Shown: positions 37,071 through 44,353 of the stretch, one piece after another | Numbering within the stretch: the stretch's first letter is position 1 | Layout of the letters: each line of letters begins with the position of its first letter | From: Salinilacihabitans rarus | GTDB lineage: Archaea > Halobacteriota > Halobacteria > Halobacteriales > Natrialbaceae | NCBI RefSeq assembly: GCF_024296665.1 | Contig: NZ_CP100762.1 | Coordinates: 248,001 to 312,000, forward strand | Direction of reading: 5' to 3' | DNA length: 64,000 bases | Program-made: the position numbers and the translations under genes | The notes under the pieces: model-generated | The model's input: only the letters and a program-made list of their open reading frames with translations | Told to the model about the DNA's origin: nothing | The model's database searches: none

Positions 37071-37559
37071 ATGGAACGGCTCAACCCGCGGGTCCGTGCC
37101 GTCTGGGTGGTTTCGGCGCTGGTTCGTGCCGCGGTCTTCGCGGGCATCGTCGTCGGCGGTACGTTCGCGCTCTACGTCGCCGACATCGTGGCGACGTCCC
37201 GCTCGCTCGTACTCGGCGGGGCGGTCGCGCTGGTGCTCGTCCTCGGGGTCGCCCGCGTCCTCGTCGCCTGGCTTCGCTACGGTATCTGGCGGTTCGAACT
37301 CCGGGAGGACGCGCTCTACATCGAACGAGGGGTCTTCACCCGGGTGAAGACCGTCGTCCCCTACGTCCGGGTCCAGCACGTCGACTCCCGCCGGTCGCCG
37401 ATCGAGCGGCCGATCGGACTCGCGACGCTCGTCGTCTACACGGCCGGATCGCGCAGCGCCGACGTGGCGATTCCCGGGCTGACGCCGGCGCGGGCGGAGG
37501 CCCTGCGGGAGGAACTGCGCCGCCTCGCGATCGAGAGCGAGGGTGAGGACGCCGTATGA
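37071..37559 (+). CDS. PH domain-containing membrane protein (YdbS-like)
   Basis: A 162-residue protein with two N-terminal membrane spans (about 13-35 and 45-63), then a single bacterial-type PH (bPH2) domain marked by [20 protein letters not shown] and [20 protein letters not shown] and the following [11 protein letters not shown] (cores quoted). It overlaps the next gene by ATGA, the same order as Bacillus ydbS-ydbT, where the pair protects against some membrane-active antimicrobials. In haloarchaea the pair is conserved but its role is unknown; a membrane-stress or defence function against halocins is a plausible guess. Confidence 0.85.
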
Positions 37560-39145
37560 GGAAACTCCACCCGGCGTCGGTCGCCGTCCGGTCGCTCTCG
37601 CGCAGTCTGAACACCGGGTTTCTGTTCTTCGTCGTCGGCGTGGTCGCCTCGCCCGGCGGGGCGGGCGCGAACCTGCTGGCCATCGGCGGGATGGTGTTGA
37701 TCGGGATCGCCTTCGGCGTCGTCTACGAACTCGCCTACTACCAGCGGTTTCGCTACCGGACGACCGAGGACACCTTCGACGTCGCCTCCGGCGTCGTCTC
37801 GCGGCGCGACCGCGAGGTCCCCCTCGGGCGCGTCCAGAACGTCGACGTCCGCCAGAACGTGATCCAGCGGGCACTCGGCATCGCGGCCGTCCACGTCGAG
37901 ACCGCCGGCGGCGGCGAGACCGAGGTGACCCTCAAGTACGTCGACGAGCGCGAGGCCAAACGCCTCCAGCGGGTGCTCCGGCGGAAGGCCCGCGGGGCCG
38001 ACGTCGGCGCTGACGCCGACGGCGAGACCGACGGGGCCGAACGGTTCGACGACGAGTACGGGGACGAGGACGAGGAGGAACTCCTGTTCGAGATCCGGCC
38101 GAGCGAGCTCGTGTTGCTGAGCGTCTTCACCATCGACCCCGGGGCGAGCGTCCTCGGCGGGATCGCCGTCTCGTTCGCCAGCGGGTTCGACCCGACGACG
38201 CTCGTCCCGTTCGACCTCATCGAGGGCGACCTCCCCGGGTCGGGGCTCGTCGCCCTCGCGTGGGCCGTCACGCTGTTCGTCCTCGCGGCTTGGGTGCTCA
38301 GCGCCGCGCTGACGTTCAGCCGCTACTACGGCTTCCGGCTCACCCGCGTCGGCGACGAACTCCACTACGAACGGGGGCTCGTCCAGCGCTACAGCGGGAC
38401 GATCCCGCTCGGGAAGGTCCAGACGCTTACCGTCACCGAGTCGGTGCCGTTTCGCTGGTTCGGCTACGCCTCGCTGGCCGTCGAGACGGCCGGCTACGCG
38501 CCCGGCCAGTCCGACTCCCGCGGGAGCGAGTCGGCGATCCCGCTGGCCGAGCGCGAGCGGGTCCTCTCGCTGGCCCGCTCGATCGAGCCGTTCGGCCCGG
38601 CCGACCCCCTGCGGTCGATCCCCAAGCGGGCGCGGGAACGCTACGCGGTCCGGTACGGGGCCGTCGTCGTCCTGCTCGTCGCCGCCGGCTACGCCCTCGC
38701 GACCTGGGTCGGCGTCGTCCGCGACTGGTACGTCCTCGCCGCGCTCGCGCTCGCGGTGCCGGTCGCCGCCCACCTCAAGTGGGCAAACCGCGGCTACCGC
38801 GTCGGCGACCGCTACTTCTTCGCCCGGACGGGCTTCTGGCGCCGGACCACGAAGGTCGTCCCCTACTACCGCGTGCAGGCCGTACTCTTCCAGCAGACGA
38901 TCTTCCAGCGCCGGCGGGGACTGGCCAGCGTGACCGCCGACACCGCGAGTTCGGCCTCGCTGCTCGGCCGGGCCGCGATCGCCCACGACGTCGACGCCTC
39001 CCGCGGGCTGGAACTACAACGGGTCACCGAGGAGCGACTGCAAGAGCAGTTGCTCGAACGCAAGCGCCAGCGGACGTTCGGCCGCTGGTTCGGCGACGAG
39101 TCGAGCGATCCACGCGAGGGGGCGTCGGGCGCGGACGCGAGCTGA
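37556..39145 (+). CDS. Multi-PH-domain membrane protein (YdbT-like)
   Basis: A 529-residue protein with three bPH2 domains separated by membrane spans. Each repeat has the same motif: [32 protein letters not shown] (about 64-95), [24 protein letters not shown] (about 265-288) and [24 protein letters not shown] (about 421-444), of which only short cores are conserved (R.V..GR.Q.V). An acidic insert (about 150-180) follows the first repeat. It is translationally coupled to the YdbS-like gene. A hairpin 5 bases after the stop may terminate the operon. Confidence 0.85.
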
Positions 39146-39169: not shown

Positions 39170-39488
39170 TCAGGCGGCCGTTCGGGGACGCGGCGACGGA
39201 TCGACCCGAGAGGTATCGTCACGAGTAGCGAACGAAGGCGGAAGATCGGACGACCAGGGGATGCTGGCGGCGAGTTCCCTCGCTCGCGTCGCTCGCGCTC
39301 GTTCGGCTCCGGGACGTAACGACTGCGGGAGATCGACTATCCCACCGACGGCGGGGTTGTCGTGACCATCGCGCGACACGACCCGTGGGCGACGCCGAGC
39401 GACGTCCGTCTGCCGGCGCCGTCGCGACCGCGACCCCCCGTGGGCGACCACGTTCCGGGTAGCTCGTCCCCCCATCGAGGGGATCAAT

Positions 39489-39503
39489 TTGATATAGCGA
39501 CAT
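39489..39503 (+). repeat. Left copy of inverted repeat flanking the recombinase module
   Basis: TTGATATAGCGACAT. Its reverse complement, with one mismatch, is at 41591-41605. The first 12 bases match exactly. Confidence 0.5.
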
Positions 39504-39584
39504 ACGATTTATCAGTCGCAGTTCGAACGCCGCGGATCGCCACGGAACTCCGAGAAGACGCCTCGAACGGCGCTATTTCCGGGT

Positions 39585-40628
39585 TTAGAGTAGCGAGTAG
39601 ACGTTGGCCTCGTAGACTCGCCGGACGCGGTCACCCCAGTTGTGGGTGTAGGTGTCGATCACGTCGCTGGCGACGTCGCCGCGGAGGTACTTGACGACGC
39701 CGCGGTCCCCGGTGCGATCCCGCAGATGGGTGGTAAAGAAGTGCCGGAAGTAGTGGGGCGTGACGTTCTCGGCGGCCCCGCCGCCCGTCCGGTACCAGCC
39801 ACGCTCCCGGGCGTGTTTCTCGACGACGTACCGGACGTCCGACGGCGTCAGGCGCTCGCCCCACGACTCGCCCGTGTCGAGAAAGAGGGGGTTCGCCGGC
39901 GAAACCGGGTCCGGGCGGATCGCCAGCCACTCGATCAGCACCCGGCGGAGTTCGTCGCCGACGGGGATCACCGTGTCCCGCTTGCGCTTGTTCGAGGCCG
40001 TCCGCTCCTCGCCGTTGACGACGTCTCCCCGGGCGGGTTCGGCGGAGACGTACAGCGAGTTCGGCCGCCGGTCGAGGGCGACGCGGGGTTCCCACTCGCA
40101 GTCGAGTTCCGCCGTCGAGAGTTCCAGGTCCCGGAGGTCGAGGTTGCAGAGTTCCCCGACGCGCATCCCGGTCTTCAGCAGGGTGACGACGACCGCCCGC
40201 TCCAGCGGGTGGGGGATCGAACCGACGAACGATCGCATCCCCTCGACGGAGATGTCCCGCCGGGTCGGGTTCGTGTCGATCGACTCGTTCATCTCCTCTA
40301 TGACCAGCGCCATCGGGTTCGACTCGAAGACGCCGACCCGGTTCATGTAGTCGTAAAAGCGGTTGACGTAGGAGGCGTAGGTCGCGATCGTGCTCGGTTC
40401 GTGGCCGCGTCGCAGCGAGTGTACCCACGCCATACACTCCCGCCTGCTCGCGGTCTCCGGGGTGACTTCCCGCCCGTCGGGATCCTCGCGGACGAACGCC
40501 TCGAACTCCCGGAGCACCCGCTCGTAGGCGTCGAGGGTGCGCTCGCTCTTGCCGTGGTAGCGTTGCTCGTCGAGGAAGTACGCGATCGGATCCTCGACGG
40601 ACTCCGGCGCGCCGGCCTCAGTCGCCAT
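39585..40628 (-). CDS. Tyrosine-type site-specific recombinase/integrase
   Basis: A 347-residue protein. Residues 1-110 form a SAM-like core-binding domain (ERTLDAYERVLREFEAF). The catalytic domain (about 125-345) has Arg156 in TGMRVGELCNL, a basic beta-hairpin with Lys214-216 (NKRKRDTV), His292 and Arg295 in HYFRHFFTTHL, and the nucleophile Tyr327 in DTYTHNW. The position of the second His (XerD LGH) is Asp318 (LRGD), a variation that I recall as usual among haloarchaeal integrases. It overlaps the RHH-type partner gene by 11 bases. The family cuts and rejoins DNA at specific sites, as in integration, excision or dimer resolution; which one applies is open. Confidence 0.9.
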   Translation of the reverse strand: MATEAGAPESVEDPIAYFLDEQRYHGKSERTLDAYERVLREFEAFVREDPDGREVTPETASRRECMAWVHSLRRGHEPSTIATYASYVNRFYDYMNRVGVFESNPMALVIEEMNESIDTNPTRRDISVEGMRSFVGSIPHPLERAVVVTLLKTGMRVGELCNLDLRDLELSTAELDCEWEPRVALDRRPNSLYVSAEPARGDVVNGEERTASNKRKRDTVIPVGDELRRVLIEWLAIRPDPVSPANPLFLDTGESWGERLTPSDVRYVVEKHARERGWYRTGGGAAENVTPHYFRHFFTTHLRDRTGDRGVVKYLRGDVASDVIDTYTHNWGDRVRRVYEANVYSLL

Positions 40629-41010
40629 CGTCGCCCTCCACGATCGCGTACCCGCCGTGGCGCCCGCTGTACCGAATCCGGTTGTCGGCCTGCAGGGATT
40701 CGAGGGCCTCGTCCAGTCGCGACTCGACGTCGTCGCTGACCGCCTCGAGGAGTTCGTCCCACGAGTACGTGTCGTCCTCTAGTAATTTTAGGACCCGCCT
40801 TTCGAGGCCGTTACCCCCGGGGTTTGCGTCCGGAGAACCGGCTTCCTCGCGGTCGGGTTCGAACCCCCGGCGCCCCGCCTGTACCATCGTCCGGACGAAC
40901 TCGCTCTGGCTCATCCCGAGTTCGTCGGCGTGGCGTTTCCACTCGGCTTTCTGGTAGGCGGGGACGTAGGTCTTGATGACTTTCTTAGACGTTTCGGCGG
41001 ACTCGCCCAT
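40618..41010 (-). CDS. DUF5805-like protein: RHH-type N-terminus and winged-helix C-terminus
   Basis: Start at the ATG at 41010 (MGESAETSKKVIKTYVP); the longest frame adds ten residues. The 130-residue protein begins with a ribbon-helix-helix-like unit (KVIKTYVPAYQKAEWKRHADELGMSQSEFVRTMV, in part) and, after a flexible linker, ends with a winged-helix-like unit (ERRVLKLLEDDTYSWDELLEAV, then IRYSGRHGGYAIV). Both halves look DNA-binding. It precedes and overlaps the recombinase gene by 11 bases, so it is made together with the enzyme and may regulate it or direct recombination, as excisionases do. This arrangement matches haloarchaeal proteins named DUF5805 as far as I recall. Confidence 0.8.
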   Translation of the reverse strand: MGESAETSKKVIKTYVPAYQKAEWKRHADELGMSQSEFVRTMVQAGRRGFEPDREEAGSPDANPGGNGLERRVLKLLEDDTYSWDELLEAVSDDVESRLDEALESLQADNRIRYSGRHGGYAIVEGDDGD

Positions 41011-41689
41011 ACGCGACCCCTCACGGGCCGTGATCTTCAATCTGTCCCTACATTCGAGCTAAGTAACCTTATCTGTGATTGAGGCACCCTAACCGCGTCC
41101 ATGATAGAACCAATGTTCGAGATTAGTGTATACTACAGCACCACAATTGAGGATCTTAGGTTTGGCTGCCTAGTACCACACTTTGGGATACAATTACGGC
41201 GCCGAACTCCGCCGCGGGCGTTCTCCGACGCCGCATCCGCGCCTCGCCCGGGAACCCGACTGCACCGTGTCCCGTGCCGTGTGCCCGGCACAGGGGCCTC
41301 TGTGGCCGAGCGTTCGGCCGACCGGACTCTACGGGATCGCCGTGCCTTCGGAGTGCACGTACTGCGCCGTCGCGAATCGCGGCACCGGCCGGCCTCGACG
41401 AACTGCTACTCGTCGTCCGGGGGAGGGATCGAACGAATGCGTCCGCGTCGAAGCCACCGGTTGCCGGGTCGGCGGTTGTGGTGTCCCCGGACCCCGTTGG
41501 TCTCGTTACCGCCGGTAGGGCTCCCCGTTCACGATCGCGAGATCGACACGTCGGGTGACGGCGACGTCGCGCGCCGACCGTGTAAACCCCATATCGCTAT
41601 ATCAACTGCACCCTCGAAATAGTTGACAACCGACCAACCGGACCCGGAACTGTACGAGACGACAACTGTTCCGAAGCCGGCACGTAACA
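41011..41689. other. Non-coding stretch upstream of the recombinase operon and the formyltransferase gene
   Basis: No open frame here has haloarchaeal codon use; those present are basic and Pro/Arg/Ser-rich. Bases 41041-41190 are AT-rich for this genome and contain likely promoter elements of the minus-strand recombinase operon (CTAAGTAACCTTATCTG). A short hairpin GTGCCG-N6-CGGCAC occurs at about 41275-41292. Near the right side (41591-41605) lies the second copy of the inverted repeat, followed by the probable promoter of the formyltransferase gene (CTCGAAATAGTTGAC). Confidence 0.55.
41591..41605 (-). repeat. Right copy of inverted repeat flanking the recombinase module
   Basis: ATATCGCTATATCAA on the plus strand, the reverse complement of TTGATATAGCGATAT. 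It matches 39489-39503 in 14 of 15 positions. Confidence 0.5.
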
Positions 41690-42709
41690 ATGTTCCGGTC
41701 GTTCGTAGACGGGGTCATGACCGGCGAGAGCCAGGGTTCGGTGATCTACGTCGGCTGTACCGCACCGGGGCGGGCCGTCCTCGAGACGCTGCTCGCCGAG
41801 GGCGTCCCGATCACGGGCGTCGTCACGATCGACCCGGAGACGGCCGCTGACGCCGGCGTCTGCGGGTACGCCGACCTCGGCCCGGTCGCCGACGAGCACG
41901 ACTTGCCCGTCTACTACCCCGAGTCGTACGCGATGACCGGGGAGGCCGACCTCGATTTCTTCGAGACGGCCGATCCGGACCTGCTGATCGTCAACGGCTG
42001 GCAGCGGCTGATTCCCGAGTCGATCCTCGAAACAGCCACGTACGGCGCGCTCGGCAACCACGGCAGCGCGTACGGCCTCCCGAAGGGCCGGGGCCGGTCG
42101 CCGCTGAACTGGTCGCTGATCGAGGACCGCGACCGATTCCTGCTGTCGGTCATCAGGCTCGACCCCGGCGCCGACTCCGGCGACGTCGTGACGACGCGCA
42201 AGTTCGACGTCACCGACCACGACACGATCCGGACGCTCTACTACAAGGTGACGATGGCGCTCGAGGAGATGTTACTGGAAGTGATCGATCCGATCCTCCG
42301 CGGGGAGTGGTCGTTCGAACCCCAGGAGGGAGAGCCGACGTACTACCCGAAGCGAAACCCCGAGGACGGCGAGATCCACTGGGGCGACGGCACCGCCGAA
42401 ATCTACGATCTGGTGCGCGCGGTCGCCGATCCGTACCCGGGCGCGTTCACGTTCCACGAGGGCGAGCGCGTGATGATCCGGGAGGCGACCCCGTTCTCCG
42501 CGGACCTCGCGCGGACCGCGGCGGCCGGGACGATCGTCGAGACGTTCTGGACGGGCGACTTCGTGGTCGCGACCGCCGACGGCACCCTGCTGGTGACCGA
42601 GTGGGAGGCCGACGAGTGGGAGCCCGAAGCCGGCCTGCGGTTCGAGAGCCACGGGCGTCACGACCGCGTCGACGGCCCCGAGCACCGCCACAACCTCACG
42701 AGTTCCTGA
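41690..42709 (+). CDS. Formyltransferase-family protein (Fmt/ArnA-like)
   Basis: A 339-residue protein; the ATG at 41690 or the one at 41717 (MTGESQGSVIYVG) may be the start. The N-terminal Rossmann-like formyltransferase domain carries GNHGSAYGLPKGRGRSPLNW and LDPGADSGDVV, which correspond to the N-x-H...RG..P..W and D-x-G-x-D-x-G signatures of 10-formyl-THF-dependent enzymes. The catalytic His and Asp are present, but the usual Asn two residues before His is Gly, with Asn directly before it. The C-terminal domain (YYPKRNPEDGEIHWGDGTAEIYDLVRA, in part) resembles the sugar-N-formyltransferase/Fmt C-terminal fold. With the deacetylase-like gene downstream, a role in surface-sugar modification is more likely than Met-tRNA formylation, which archaea do not use for initiation. 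Confidence 0.82.
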   Translation: MFRSFVDGVMTGESQGSVIYVGCTAPGRAVLETLLAEGVPITGVVTIDPETAADAGVCGYADLGPVADEHDLPVYYPESYAMTGEADLDFFETADPDLLIVNGWQRLIPESILETATYGALGNHGSAYGLPKGRGRSPLNWSLIEDRDRFLLSVIRLDPGADSGDVVTTRKFDVTDHDTIRTLYYKVTMALEEMLLEVIDPILRGEWSFEPQEGEPTYYPKRNPEDGEIHWGDGTAEIYDLVRAVADPYPGAFTFHEGERVMIREATPFSADLARTAAAGTIVETFWTGDFVVATADGTLLVTEWEADEWEPEAGLRFESHGRHDRVDGPEHRHNLTSS

Positions 42710-42712
42710 GCG

Positions 42713-43420
42713 ATGCCGGAACTCTCCGTCCCCGACCGACTCGCCTACGACCTCGACGAGTACGAGGGGTTGCTCCGGTCGCTGCGCGAGGACGGCTTCT
42801 CGTTTACCGGCTTCTCGTCGCTCTCGGACGACGAGGTCGCGATCCGCCACGACGTCGACCTCTCGCCGGAGGCGGCCCTCGAGATGGCCCGCATCGAGGC
42901 GAACCTCGACGTCCGGACGACCTACTGCTTCCTGCTGACGACGCCGGTGTACAACCTGCTCGAAGTCGAGCACATGCAGGCGCTCGCCGAGATCGACGCC
43001 CTCGGCCACGACGTCGGCCTGCACTTCGACACCCACCACTACTGGCCGAATCGGCCGAGCGCGGACGAACTCCGGACGCGAGTCCGCGCGGAGTGTGACG
43101 TCATCGGCAAACTGGTCCGGAGGGAGGTCGACGTCGTCTCGTTCCACCGGCCTCCGGAGTGGGTCCTCGGCGTCGACTTCGCCGGCTTCGAGAACGCCTA
43201 CGGACCCGCCTACTTCACCGAGGCCACCTACCGCTCGGATTCGAACCAGAAGTGGCGCCGCGAACCGCCGTTCCCCGACGGCCGGCCGGACCGGCTCCAG
43301 CTTCTCGTCCATCCGGGCCTGTGGGGCGAGGACGACCGCGAGATGGACGCGATCATCGCCGACCTCGCGGGGACCTGCCACGACCGCGTCGACACGTACC
43401 TCGAGGCACTCGGCGCCTGA
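42713..43420 (+). CDS. Polysaccharide deacetylase-like protein
   Basis: A 235-residue cytoplasmic-looking protein 3 bases after the formyltransferase gene, so translation is probably coupled. The pattern VAIRHDVDLSPEAALEMARIE contains the His-Asp-x-Asp of NodB-type carbohydrate esterase 4 proteins, and VGLHFDTHHYWPNR and VVSFHRPPEWV supply further His residues; the usual HxxxH is DTHHYW here. There is no signal peptide, so it would act on nucleotide- or lipid-linked sugars inside the cell. Together with the formyltransferase it could deacetylate and then formylate an amino sugar, which is an inference from gene order. Confidence 0.75.
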   Translation: MPELSVPDRLAYDLDEYEGLLRSLREDGFSFTGFSSLSDDEVAIRHDVDLSPEAALEMARIEANLDVRTTYCFLLTTPVYNLLEVEHMQALAEIDALGHDVGLHFDTHHYWPNRPSADELRTRVRAECDVIGKLVRREVDVVSFHRPPEWVLGVDFAGFENAYGPAYFTEATYRSDSNQKWRREPPFPDGRPDRLQLLVHPGLWGEDDREMDAIIADLAGTCHDRVDTYLEALGA

Positions 43421-43426
43421 ACCGAC

Positions 43427-44353
43427 TCAGACCGCGAGTTCGGTCTCCGTCTCCCGCTCGACACCCGTCAGCAGCGAGCGAACCGCCCGCACCGCGTCCG
43501 TAACCTCGGCCGCGTTCTCCATGAGGACCGTCTCGCTCGGGAAGAGCCGCTCGCCGAGCGACAGGCCGTGCTGGCGTGCCGTCGAGCCCGTCACGGTCAG
43601 GTAGACGCCGAGCCCCGTCTCGGCGATCGCGGCCTCCTCCTCGCGGTCGCCGGACGGATACCGGAACTCGACGTCCGCCAGCGCGTCCGTCCCGACGACC
43701 GCCTGGACGAGTCGCTCGTACCGCGGGGCGATACACAGCGGCCCCGCGTACTCCGTCACGAACGAGCGGTCGAGTCCGCCGGCGTTCGGGGCGACCTCCG
43801 GGGTCGCCATCAGCGTGTGGTAGACCGTGTCGCCGAGACCGGAGACGACGCGGACGTCCGTGTCGGTCGGGTCGATCCGGGCGTTCACGTCGGCGATCCG
43901 GTCGAGCGGCTCCGGGCGCAGTTCGACGACCTCCTCTAAGACGAGGTCGGCGCTGTCGAACCCGAGGGCGAACTCGTGGGTGCGCAGCGCCCGGAACGGC
44001 TCGTCCCGGCCGACAAGCTGGATCGCCGTCCCGTTCGGGACGCCGTCGACGCCGTCGAGCGGGAGAGTCACGCTGTCGAAGACGATCCGCCGGGGTTTCC
44101 CGTCGCGGTCGTCCCGGAGCAGCGTGTACTCCGGCGCCGTCGGCTCGTCGACGTCGCTGTAGGTCGCGAGACGATGGTAGACGTCGCCGTCGGTCGGGTC
44201 GACGGCGCCTTTGGTGACCGCCTTCTCGTGTCGGAGCGTCGAGGTGACGTCGTCCGCGAGCCCCGCGAGGTGCAGGCGCCGTGCCAGTAGCTCGAACACC
44301 GATTCGAGCGGGCGCCCCTTGCGCGGAATCGCGACCGGAATCGTCTCGCCCAT
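43427..44353 (-). CDS. Divergent HisG-like (ATP phosphoribosyltransferase fold) protein
   Basis: A 308-residue protein beginning MGETIPVAIPRKGRPLESVFELL, which resembles the HisG N-terminus (I-A-x-P-x-K-G-R). The later FVTEYAGPLCIAPRYERLVQ matches the HisG hinge region (TEYPNLTRRYL type), and LTVTGSTARQHGLSLGERLF then VLMENAA matches the phosphate-binding TGSTLRANGL region. The middle is longer and unlike HisG. It may use PRPP or another phosphate ligand, but the function is unknown. It ends 6 bases from the convergent deacetylase-like gene and is 60 bases downstream of the acidic coiled-coil gene, so the two minus-strand genes form a likely operon. Confidence 0.65.
   Translation of the reverse strand: MGETIPVAIPRKGRPLESVFELLARRLHLAGLADDVTSTLRHEKAVTKGAVDPTDGDVYHRLATYSDVDEPTAPEYTLLRDDRDGKPRRIVFDSVTLPLDGVDGVPNGTAIQLVGRDEPFRALRTHEFALGFDSADLVLEEVVELRPEPLDRIADVNARIDPTDTDVRVVSGLGDTVYHTLMATPEVAPNAGGLDRSFVTEYAGPLCIAPRYERLVQAVVGTDALADVEFRYPSGDREEEAAIAETGLGVYLTVTGSTARQHGLSLGERLFPSETVLMENAAEVTDAVRAVRSLLTGVERETETELAV

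Follow-up and report, generated by a model that had tools for sequence, protein, structure and literature searches.

Lone recombinase genes that adjoin an Xer-type site are known from Streptococcus and Lactococcus (XerS/difSL) and from Helicobacter and Campylobacter (XerH/difH). In Acinetobacter, the pdif/dif modules consist of genes bracketed by inversely oriented Xer-type sites. XerS is a single tyrosine recombinase of ∼350 amino acids encoded beside its own site, difSL, which is 31 bp long and better bound at its left half (available part of PMC5357621), and PsrA of Streptococcus pneumoniae is a tyrosine recombinase that acts on inverted sites (available part of PMC7096588). Among archaea, the XerA/dif system is known from Pyrococcus abyssi and the Thermococcales; archaeal dif has two 11-bp inverted arms around a 6-bp spacer and occurs in a single copy per chromosome, placed where replication terminates.

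For haloarchaea, the available part of a 2020 review (PMC7776575) gives Haloferax volcanii 12 xerC/D genes, four of which can be deleted without loss of viability, and reports that no role in termination had been determined for them. The main text of the 2010 paper that found archaeal dif, so far as available, contains no word beginning with "halo". We found no description of a haloarchaeal dif site in the open-access literature (most subscription papers lie outside that scope), no paper there that joins TATAGCGA with haloarchaea, and no chromosomal counterpart there of the inward-facing site pairs around housekeeping operons described below; further background is in the available parts of PMC8371274 and PMC3646895. 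Here we examine a recombinase locus in 64,000 nucleotides of the Salinilacihabitans rarus genome, the whole of the stretch analyzed and hereafter called the window. With somewhat better than even confidence, we read it as a haloarchaeal core Xer-type module, a single recombinase with its own inverted dif-like sites, on which that recombinase would act.

A recombinase, its partner, and two inverted sites

The initial annotation held that a 15-base inverted repeat, too close a match to be likely by chance, brackets a tyrosine recombinase, a small partner, and noncoding DNA. The repeat is confirmed: TTGATATAGCGACAT at 39489-39503 (+) returns as TTGATATAGCGATAT at 41591-41605 (-), with a single mismatch and the initial 12 bases identical. 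At ≤3 mismatches, the 15-mer has 2 matches in the 64-kb window versus 0.17 expected, a count reached in 2 of 100 shuffles of the window. The 15-mer is not frequent elsewhere in the genome; frequency there was what the annotation had named as a point against its reading. At ≤2 mismatches, TTGATATAGCGAYAT has three matches in its own genome (3,622,565 bases), namely the window pair at 0 and another at 2; at ≤1 mismatch, the 15-mer has no match in the 3.62-Mb genome beyond the window pair. The resemblance also continues past the 15-mers, each of which sits in a longer site of ∼31 bp, approximately ATTNNRTATAGCGAYATRYGRTTTAYNNGTY, that was delineated with a matrix iterated from related loci. By comparison with the two site scores (Table 1), the best non-overlapping place in the window reaches -2.1 bits, and 20 base shuffles of the window, scanned on one strand, peak at 5.2 bits. 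The D site lies between the recombinase 3' end and a convergent PH-domain gene, and the U site lies on the 5' side of the partner gene, in the opposite orientation to the first. The interval holds what the annotation described: the recombinase, the small partner, whose gene overlaps the recombinase start, and a stretch with no recognizable gene or recombinase remnant.

Table 1. Features of the locus, in window coordinates
Feature	Position	Strand	Evidence
Two bacterial PH-domain genes, conserved opposite flank	37071..39145	+	PF03703
dif-like site 1 (D site)	39487..39517	+	matrix 53.0 bits; model R1 34.9 bits, E 3.4e-8; core ATTTGATATAGCGACATACGATTTATCAGTC
Xer-like tyrosine recombinase, 347 aa	39585..40628	-	PF00589 5.6e-15 and PF02899 1.4e-6, both above cut-off
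Partner protein, 130 aa, DUF5805	40618..41010	-	PF19121 3.4e-30
Stretch inside the bracket without recognizable gene or recombinase remnant, ∼570 bp	41011..41576	.	ORF and remnant inspection
dif-like site 2 (U site)	41577..41607	-	matrix 36.2 bits; model R1 28.1 bits, E 5.2e-6
Formyltransferase gene, between site 2 and c2	41717-42709	+	
235-aa gene, between site 2 and c2	42713-43420	+	
Flank gene c2, 308 aa, orientation reference	43427..44353	-	flank clustering; no Pfam match

Tyrosine recombinases are recognized by the integrase fold and the catalytic residues R, K, H, R, H/W, and Y. In the recombinase described here, R156, K214, H292, R295, and Y327 are invariant in 79/79 aligned relatives, and an aspartate (D) occupies the H/W position (318) in every one of them, with the positions assigned by eye. 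The best PDB match of its structure model in Foldseek is the archaeal Xer 4a8e (E 6.7e-10, with a modest TM score of 0.39-0.48), and the fold also matches Cre and Int. Against the XerA equivalog NF040815, the recombinase scores 112.9 bits, below the curated cut-off of 220, which none of the 16 hits in its own genome passes. A further match, at 3.1e-10, links residues 13-111 to PDB chain 9i5v_14, a 401-aa entry under the name "RaiA"; the N-terminal domain of the recombinase may therefore also occur in a ribosome-bound protein. As for the partner, its N-terminus weakly resembles NikA-like/ribbon-helix-helix proteins (PF21983 at 8.9e-4, below its cut-off), a faint hint that it may bind DNA. Its structure model is of low confidence (mean pLDDT 68) and has no Foldseek match at E ≤ 0.001, so the structure lends weak support.

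The site itself resembles dif in its left half. When the left half-site matrix is run along the 28-bp P. abyssi dif (given in the available part of PMC2958812), the two 11-bp arms rank first and second of 36 windows, in register, with scores of 14.1 and 10.7 versus 1.2 for the next window; 1.9% of shuffled dif sequences attain 14.1. As a second arm, the right half does badly, being weak and off the dif spacing. The strongest dyad pairs two abutting 11-bp halves as a palindrome (p = 0.0075 by column permutation). Unlike XerA/dif, the haloarchaeal site does not have the 11-6-11 layout, and there is more than one site per chromosome: at E ≤ 0.01, model R1 has 5 hits in the window's own genome and from 0 to 16 across 195 genomes.

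Strand exchange normally needs identical central bases in both sites. The central 7 bp of paired sites are identical in 0 of 73 loci, where permutation predicts 1.33 (P = 0.25), and the central 6 bp are identical in 3 of 73 pairs versus 3.56 expected. The central bases of a pair thus agree at chance level, with no avoidance of identity and no sign of the match that strand exchange would call for. We rejected RNA pairing of the flanks, since centre and right half agree no more within a locus than between loci; the left half has a slight within-locus excess (7.71 versus 7.45 of 11, p = 0.015).

Distribution of the module and of further site pairs

The recombinase is matched in 186 of 195 genomes of the order at E ≤ 0.001 and in all 157 near-complete ones; at E ≤ 1e-120, it is present in 111/111 near-complete genomes of the window's family. 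Judged by these sequence matches, the recombinase is a core haloarchaeal gene, not a mobile integrase. Eighty haloarchaeal loci were gathered by recombinase similarity, making 81 with the window. The 15-mer alone, at ≤2 mismatches and in the expected orientation, occurs on at least one side in 58 of the 80 loci and on both sides in 12, and its matches continue into further shared bases. With the matrix, 75 of 81 loci have an inward-facing site scoring >18 bits on each side, one upstream of the partner and one downstream of the recombinase, a count that is partly circular because the matrix was trained on the same loci; the wrong strand of the same intervals gives 1/81 and 0/81. The upstream site is missing from six loci (L042, L071, L080, L082, L086, and L090). 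Less dependent on the training loci are the whole-genome scans described below and two further observations: both sites are present in 20/20 loci fetched later, though some of these are of the same species, and the nearest relative in the sample (genome G106), which is outside the training set, has a site pair at 30.0 and 30.4 bits. A sequence-only covariance model (R1) picks up the site in 184 of the 195 genomes at E ≤ 0.01; with strict filters, it has a hit in 154 of the 157 near-complete genomes, and the three misses include G106, where the matrix does detect the sites.

The recombinase stop and the D site are at most 100 bp apart in 52 of the 81 loci and at most 200 bp apart in 67, and a distance of 0.4-2.5 kb separates the U site from the partner gene (63 loci). 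In having a lone recombinase gene next to a site, the module is like XerS/difSL and XerH/difH, and we infer that the D site belongs to the adjacent recombinase. Unlike the XerS and XerH modules, it has an inverted site on each side, a gene for a putative DNA-binding partner, and D at the H/W position of the recombinase, and haloarchaea have further site pairs elsewhere in the genome. The initial annotation had weighed the case of a segment conserved in distant haloarchaea without boundaries at the repeats; the segment is indeed conserved there, yet its boundaries fall at the repeats. Its suggestion of recombinase sites stands to the extent that the repeats are conserved recombinase-type sites bounding the module, which the recombinase would bind.

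Site pairs are not confined to this module. We took the pair statistics from the 32 genomes with listed positions, which have 196 hits (46 + 150 among the matches listed). Among the matches listed, 61 adjacent pairs lie within 6 kb, where random placement would give ∼2.5 pairs of any kind; 53 face inward, 4 and 3 are tandem, and 1 faces outward. At least 29 of the 32 genomes have one or more such pairs and at least 16 have two or more, with brackets of 0.2-6 kb, again among the matches listed. We opened 33 stretches, in some of which no gene could be called, and found brackets that contain, among others, recombinase paralogues accompanied by a partner of their own, a Rio2 kinase, DUF5783 with NifU, hemC, HMG-CoA synthase with S19e, and a DHH-family exonuclease-like gene (named by eye). 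The arrangement is like Acinetobacter pdif in that cargo lies between inversely oriented Xer-type sites; in contrast, the haloarchaeal brackets are chromosomal in the genomes examined and surround core or housekeeping genes and the recombinase, not plasmid resistance cargo.

The paralogous recombinase modules with their own partner are at L217 6497-7924 and L221 4404-5938, where the downstream site window starts 2 bp past the recombinase stop or overlaps it. In the window's own genome, the bracket G000:C1:1511083-1514362 (L147 5079-8373) holds the Rio2 kinase gene and a tyrosine recombinase of 410 aa with a weak PF00589 match. Across 44 Rio2 loci, 28 have both sites, 13 have one, and 3 have none, one site being wrongly oriented; without the four loci that were found via their sites, 24 of 40 have both. 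Where an upstream site is present, it ends 35-55 bp before the Rio2 gene in 25 of 34 loci. Among smaller features, L206 3718-4965 has two consecutive inward brackets of ∼340 bp each, neither of which yields a gene call, a tRNA, or an Rfam match, and no tRNA or known RNA was found in the small brackets of the loci scanned. At seven Halorubrum loci (L096, L098, L100, L101, L106, L109, and L110), a third, tandemly oriented site brackets a c4-c3-c2 block adjoining the recombinase module. The window's own genome has more weak sites without a strong partner at G000:C1:2488952, 2929409, and 824214, although a weak site facing inward (19 bits, L161 5717) does pair with that at 2929409.

Orientation and replacement of the module

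We read the orientation of the module from its conserved neighbours, c2 on one side and the PH-domain and fumarase-like genes across the module. Of the 81 loci, 50 show the flank gene c2, which points at the module in 50/50, and in the other 31 it is not seen. In the window, a formyltransferase gene and a 235-aa gene stand between site 2 and c2; both are also found there in L049, L054, L056, and L065, and each gene's cluster counts 5 loci among the 81. The recombinase 3' end lies towards c2 in 31 of the 50 loci and away from it in 19. The c2 tree requires 5 orientation changes, at least 4 of them forced by supported branches, and orientation is constant within a 26-row Natrialbaceae clade. DNA alignment shows the module forward but both flanks reversed in three pairs of loci: the window locus and L061, L091 and L108, and L084 and L111 (in L084, the outer flank is situated past a third site). 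The module has diverged further than c2 in L091/L108 (71% versus 84% identity) and in L084/L111 (79% versus 87%), so replacement could mimic inversion there. Only for the window and L061 is the module no more diverged than c2 (78% versus 72%), which makes this pair the best case of true inversion. An apparent inversion between L089 and L105 was dropped, since L105 has two recombinases. A crossover signature, in which the outer half of the site follows the flank and the inner half the module end, gave no signal in 570 pairs, which are too diverged.

Replacement inside the bracket is seen in the window's family, where the module occurs as allele A (∼71-82% identity to the window recombinase) and allele B (∼59-65%), which alternate within genera, beside c2. 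In genus g74, the A locus L227 matches the B loci at 86-98% over ∼1.2 kb past the D site, and its left flank matches L226 and L228 at 87-97% until ∼400 bp before U. Between the sites, L227 and the B loci share 36-49% in noncoding DNA, ∼55-74% across most coding sequence, and 79-89% across the final few hundred bases of the recombinase gene, whereas the B loci share 72-100% among themselves. Open A and B reading frames stand head to head in one bracket in 4 genomes, and an open B lies next to an A-like copy broken into different frames in 3. In L251, L253, and L255, what is left of the A-like partner aligns from residue 60-63 onward only, as if truncated at a single point. The bracket thus persists while divergent alleles replace one another within it, and some of the apparent inversion between species is replacement. 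In L224 and L225, the flanks change sharply up to a point 12-22 bp short of the 45-bp site window, with extra DNA on the U side; this pattern shows that the site stays with its module and does not in itself point to a crossover in the site.

The idea that the segment is invertible finds support in that orientation differs between relatives. Routine flipping is unlikely, given the uniform orientation of the 26-row clade, the partial replacement, and the unlike central bases of the paired sites. Unlike PsrA-type systems, the haloarchaeal module shows no sign of frequent flipping, and no gene was seen to be switched. The Rio2 gene, for its part, lies beside the nfo-like gene (named by eye) in a single orientation in 21/21 loci, and another neighbour, g1, is on the opposite side in 3 of 25.

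The further suggestion, that the repeats are the ends of a small mobile element, is not supported, given the presence of the recombinase in all near-complete genomes sampled and the matches in phage and plasmid records. Among 50,697 phage records, there are 11 recombinase matches, all below 60% identity (20.7-24.1% among the matches listed), and only two plasmid records exceed 60%, both of them megaplasmid copies. Three viral contigs carry the exact site pattern (L203, L204, and L205). L203 (10404) and L204 (3509) are near-identical contigs of haloarchaeal-like composition with one site copy each, and L205, at 34% GC, probably matches by chance.

Possible roles of the paired sites

On the reading we prefer, a core Xer-type module, the recombinase would bind and cut both flanking sites. 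It would act on copies of one site on sister chromosomes, and this site-specific recombination would resolve dimers or multimers in the manner of XerS/difSL and XerA/dif. Occasionally the two inverted sites would recombine with each other, a by-product that flips the module, and the partner probably aids synapsis or regulates the module. Two recombinase paralogues and the second recombinase of the window's own genome occupy like brackets, which supports this reading. The best account is of a module that may work like XerS/difSL and XerA/dif, although the XerA score, the site layout, and the copy number all place it outside XerA/dif proper.

The main rival, which we nevertheless consider unlikely, is that the sites are operators of a dimeric regulator, for example the partner, so that the module and the housekeeping cassettes would form a regulon with no recombination. 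The palindrome of abutting 11-bp halves, the position of the upstream site just before Rio2, the lack of central identity within pairs, a Rio2 gene that never flips relative to the nfo-like gene, and the hint of DNA binding by the partner all fit an operator. However, an operator predicts no inward second copy at the 3' end, and the pairs, among the matches listed, overwhelmingly face inward; moreover, the U site is far from the partner gene, the same type of bracket encloses paralogous recombinases, and the half-site resembles proven Xer arms. The site may overlap a promoter at Rio2. As a whole explanation, shared promoter sequence, the main alternative in the initial annotation, fails for the inward-facing copy behind the recombinase 3' end. 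The same strict inward orientation around single operons, together with the tolerance of differing central bases, would suit an architectural role in which recombinase and partner hold the two sites in synapsis as a small operon loop with little strand exchange, and Haloferax is reported to have ∼70 loops whose basis is unresolved (available part of PMC9764264). We think this improbable, given invariant catalytic residues and brackets far smaller, among the matches listed, than the 25-570 kb domains described in that part of the same source.

Inverted sites around a tyrosine recombinase, with both orientations found among relatives, could also mark a phase-variable segment whose recombinase often flips its own module as a switch. 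Against this, orientation is uniform in the Natrialbaceae clade, the central 7 bp differ in 73/73 pairs, and c2 faces the module wherever it is seen and is thus not placed to be switched; we regard such a switch as very improbable. Least probable of all is the remnant or ends of a small integrative element. The extra DNA of L224 and L225, which stops 12-22 bp short of the U site window, and the third sites at some loci are in its favour, but the recombinase is in every near-complete genome sampled and the phage collection has no close relative, so that its distribution largely refutes it. As to mobility, the module lies beside c2 in 50 of 81 loci, and the two megaplasmid copies have been noted.

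We hold a different kind of recombination as a tentative and rather doubtful possibility: a genome-wide, ancient system of cassette exchange, in which inward dif-like pairs bracket housekeeping operons and the recombinase gene, to be swapped between chromosome copies. Each site might recombine with nothing but its counterpart, whether that lies on a second copy of the chromosome or in a mating partner. Since the members of a pair differ centrally, a bracketed cassette could be swapped without inversion or deletion, and divergent recombinase alleles turning over in an unchanged bracket are the trace that such exchange would be expected to leave. If true, this would be natural recombinase-mediated cassette exchange in polyploid, mating cells.

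For the preferred reading, the core Xer-type module, the significance is more immediate. Whether haloarchaea have an Xer/dif system has been an open question, and one recombinase, found in every near-complete genome sampled, is now singled out. The ∼31-bp site beside it is a candidate for the missing chromosome-recombination site of the haloarchaea. With one recombinase and a concrete target, the question of a haloarchaeal Xer/dif system becomes directly testable.
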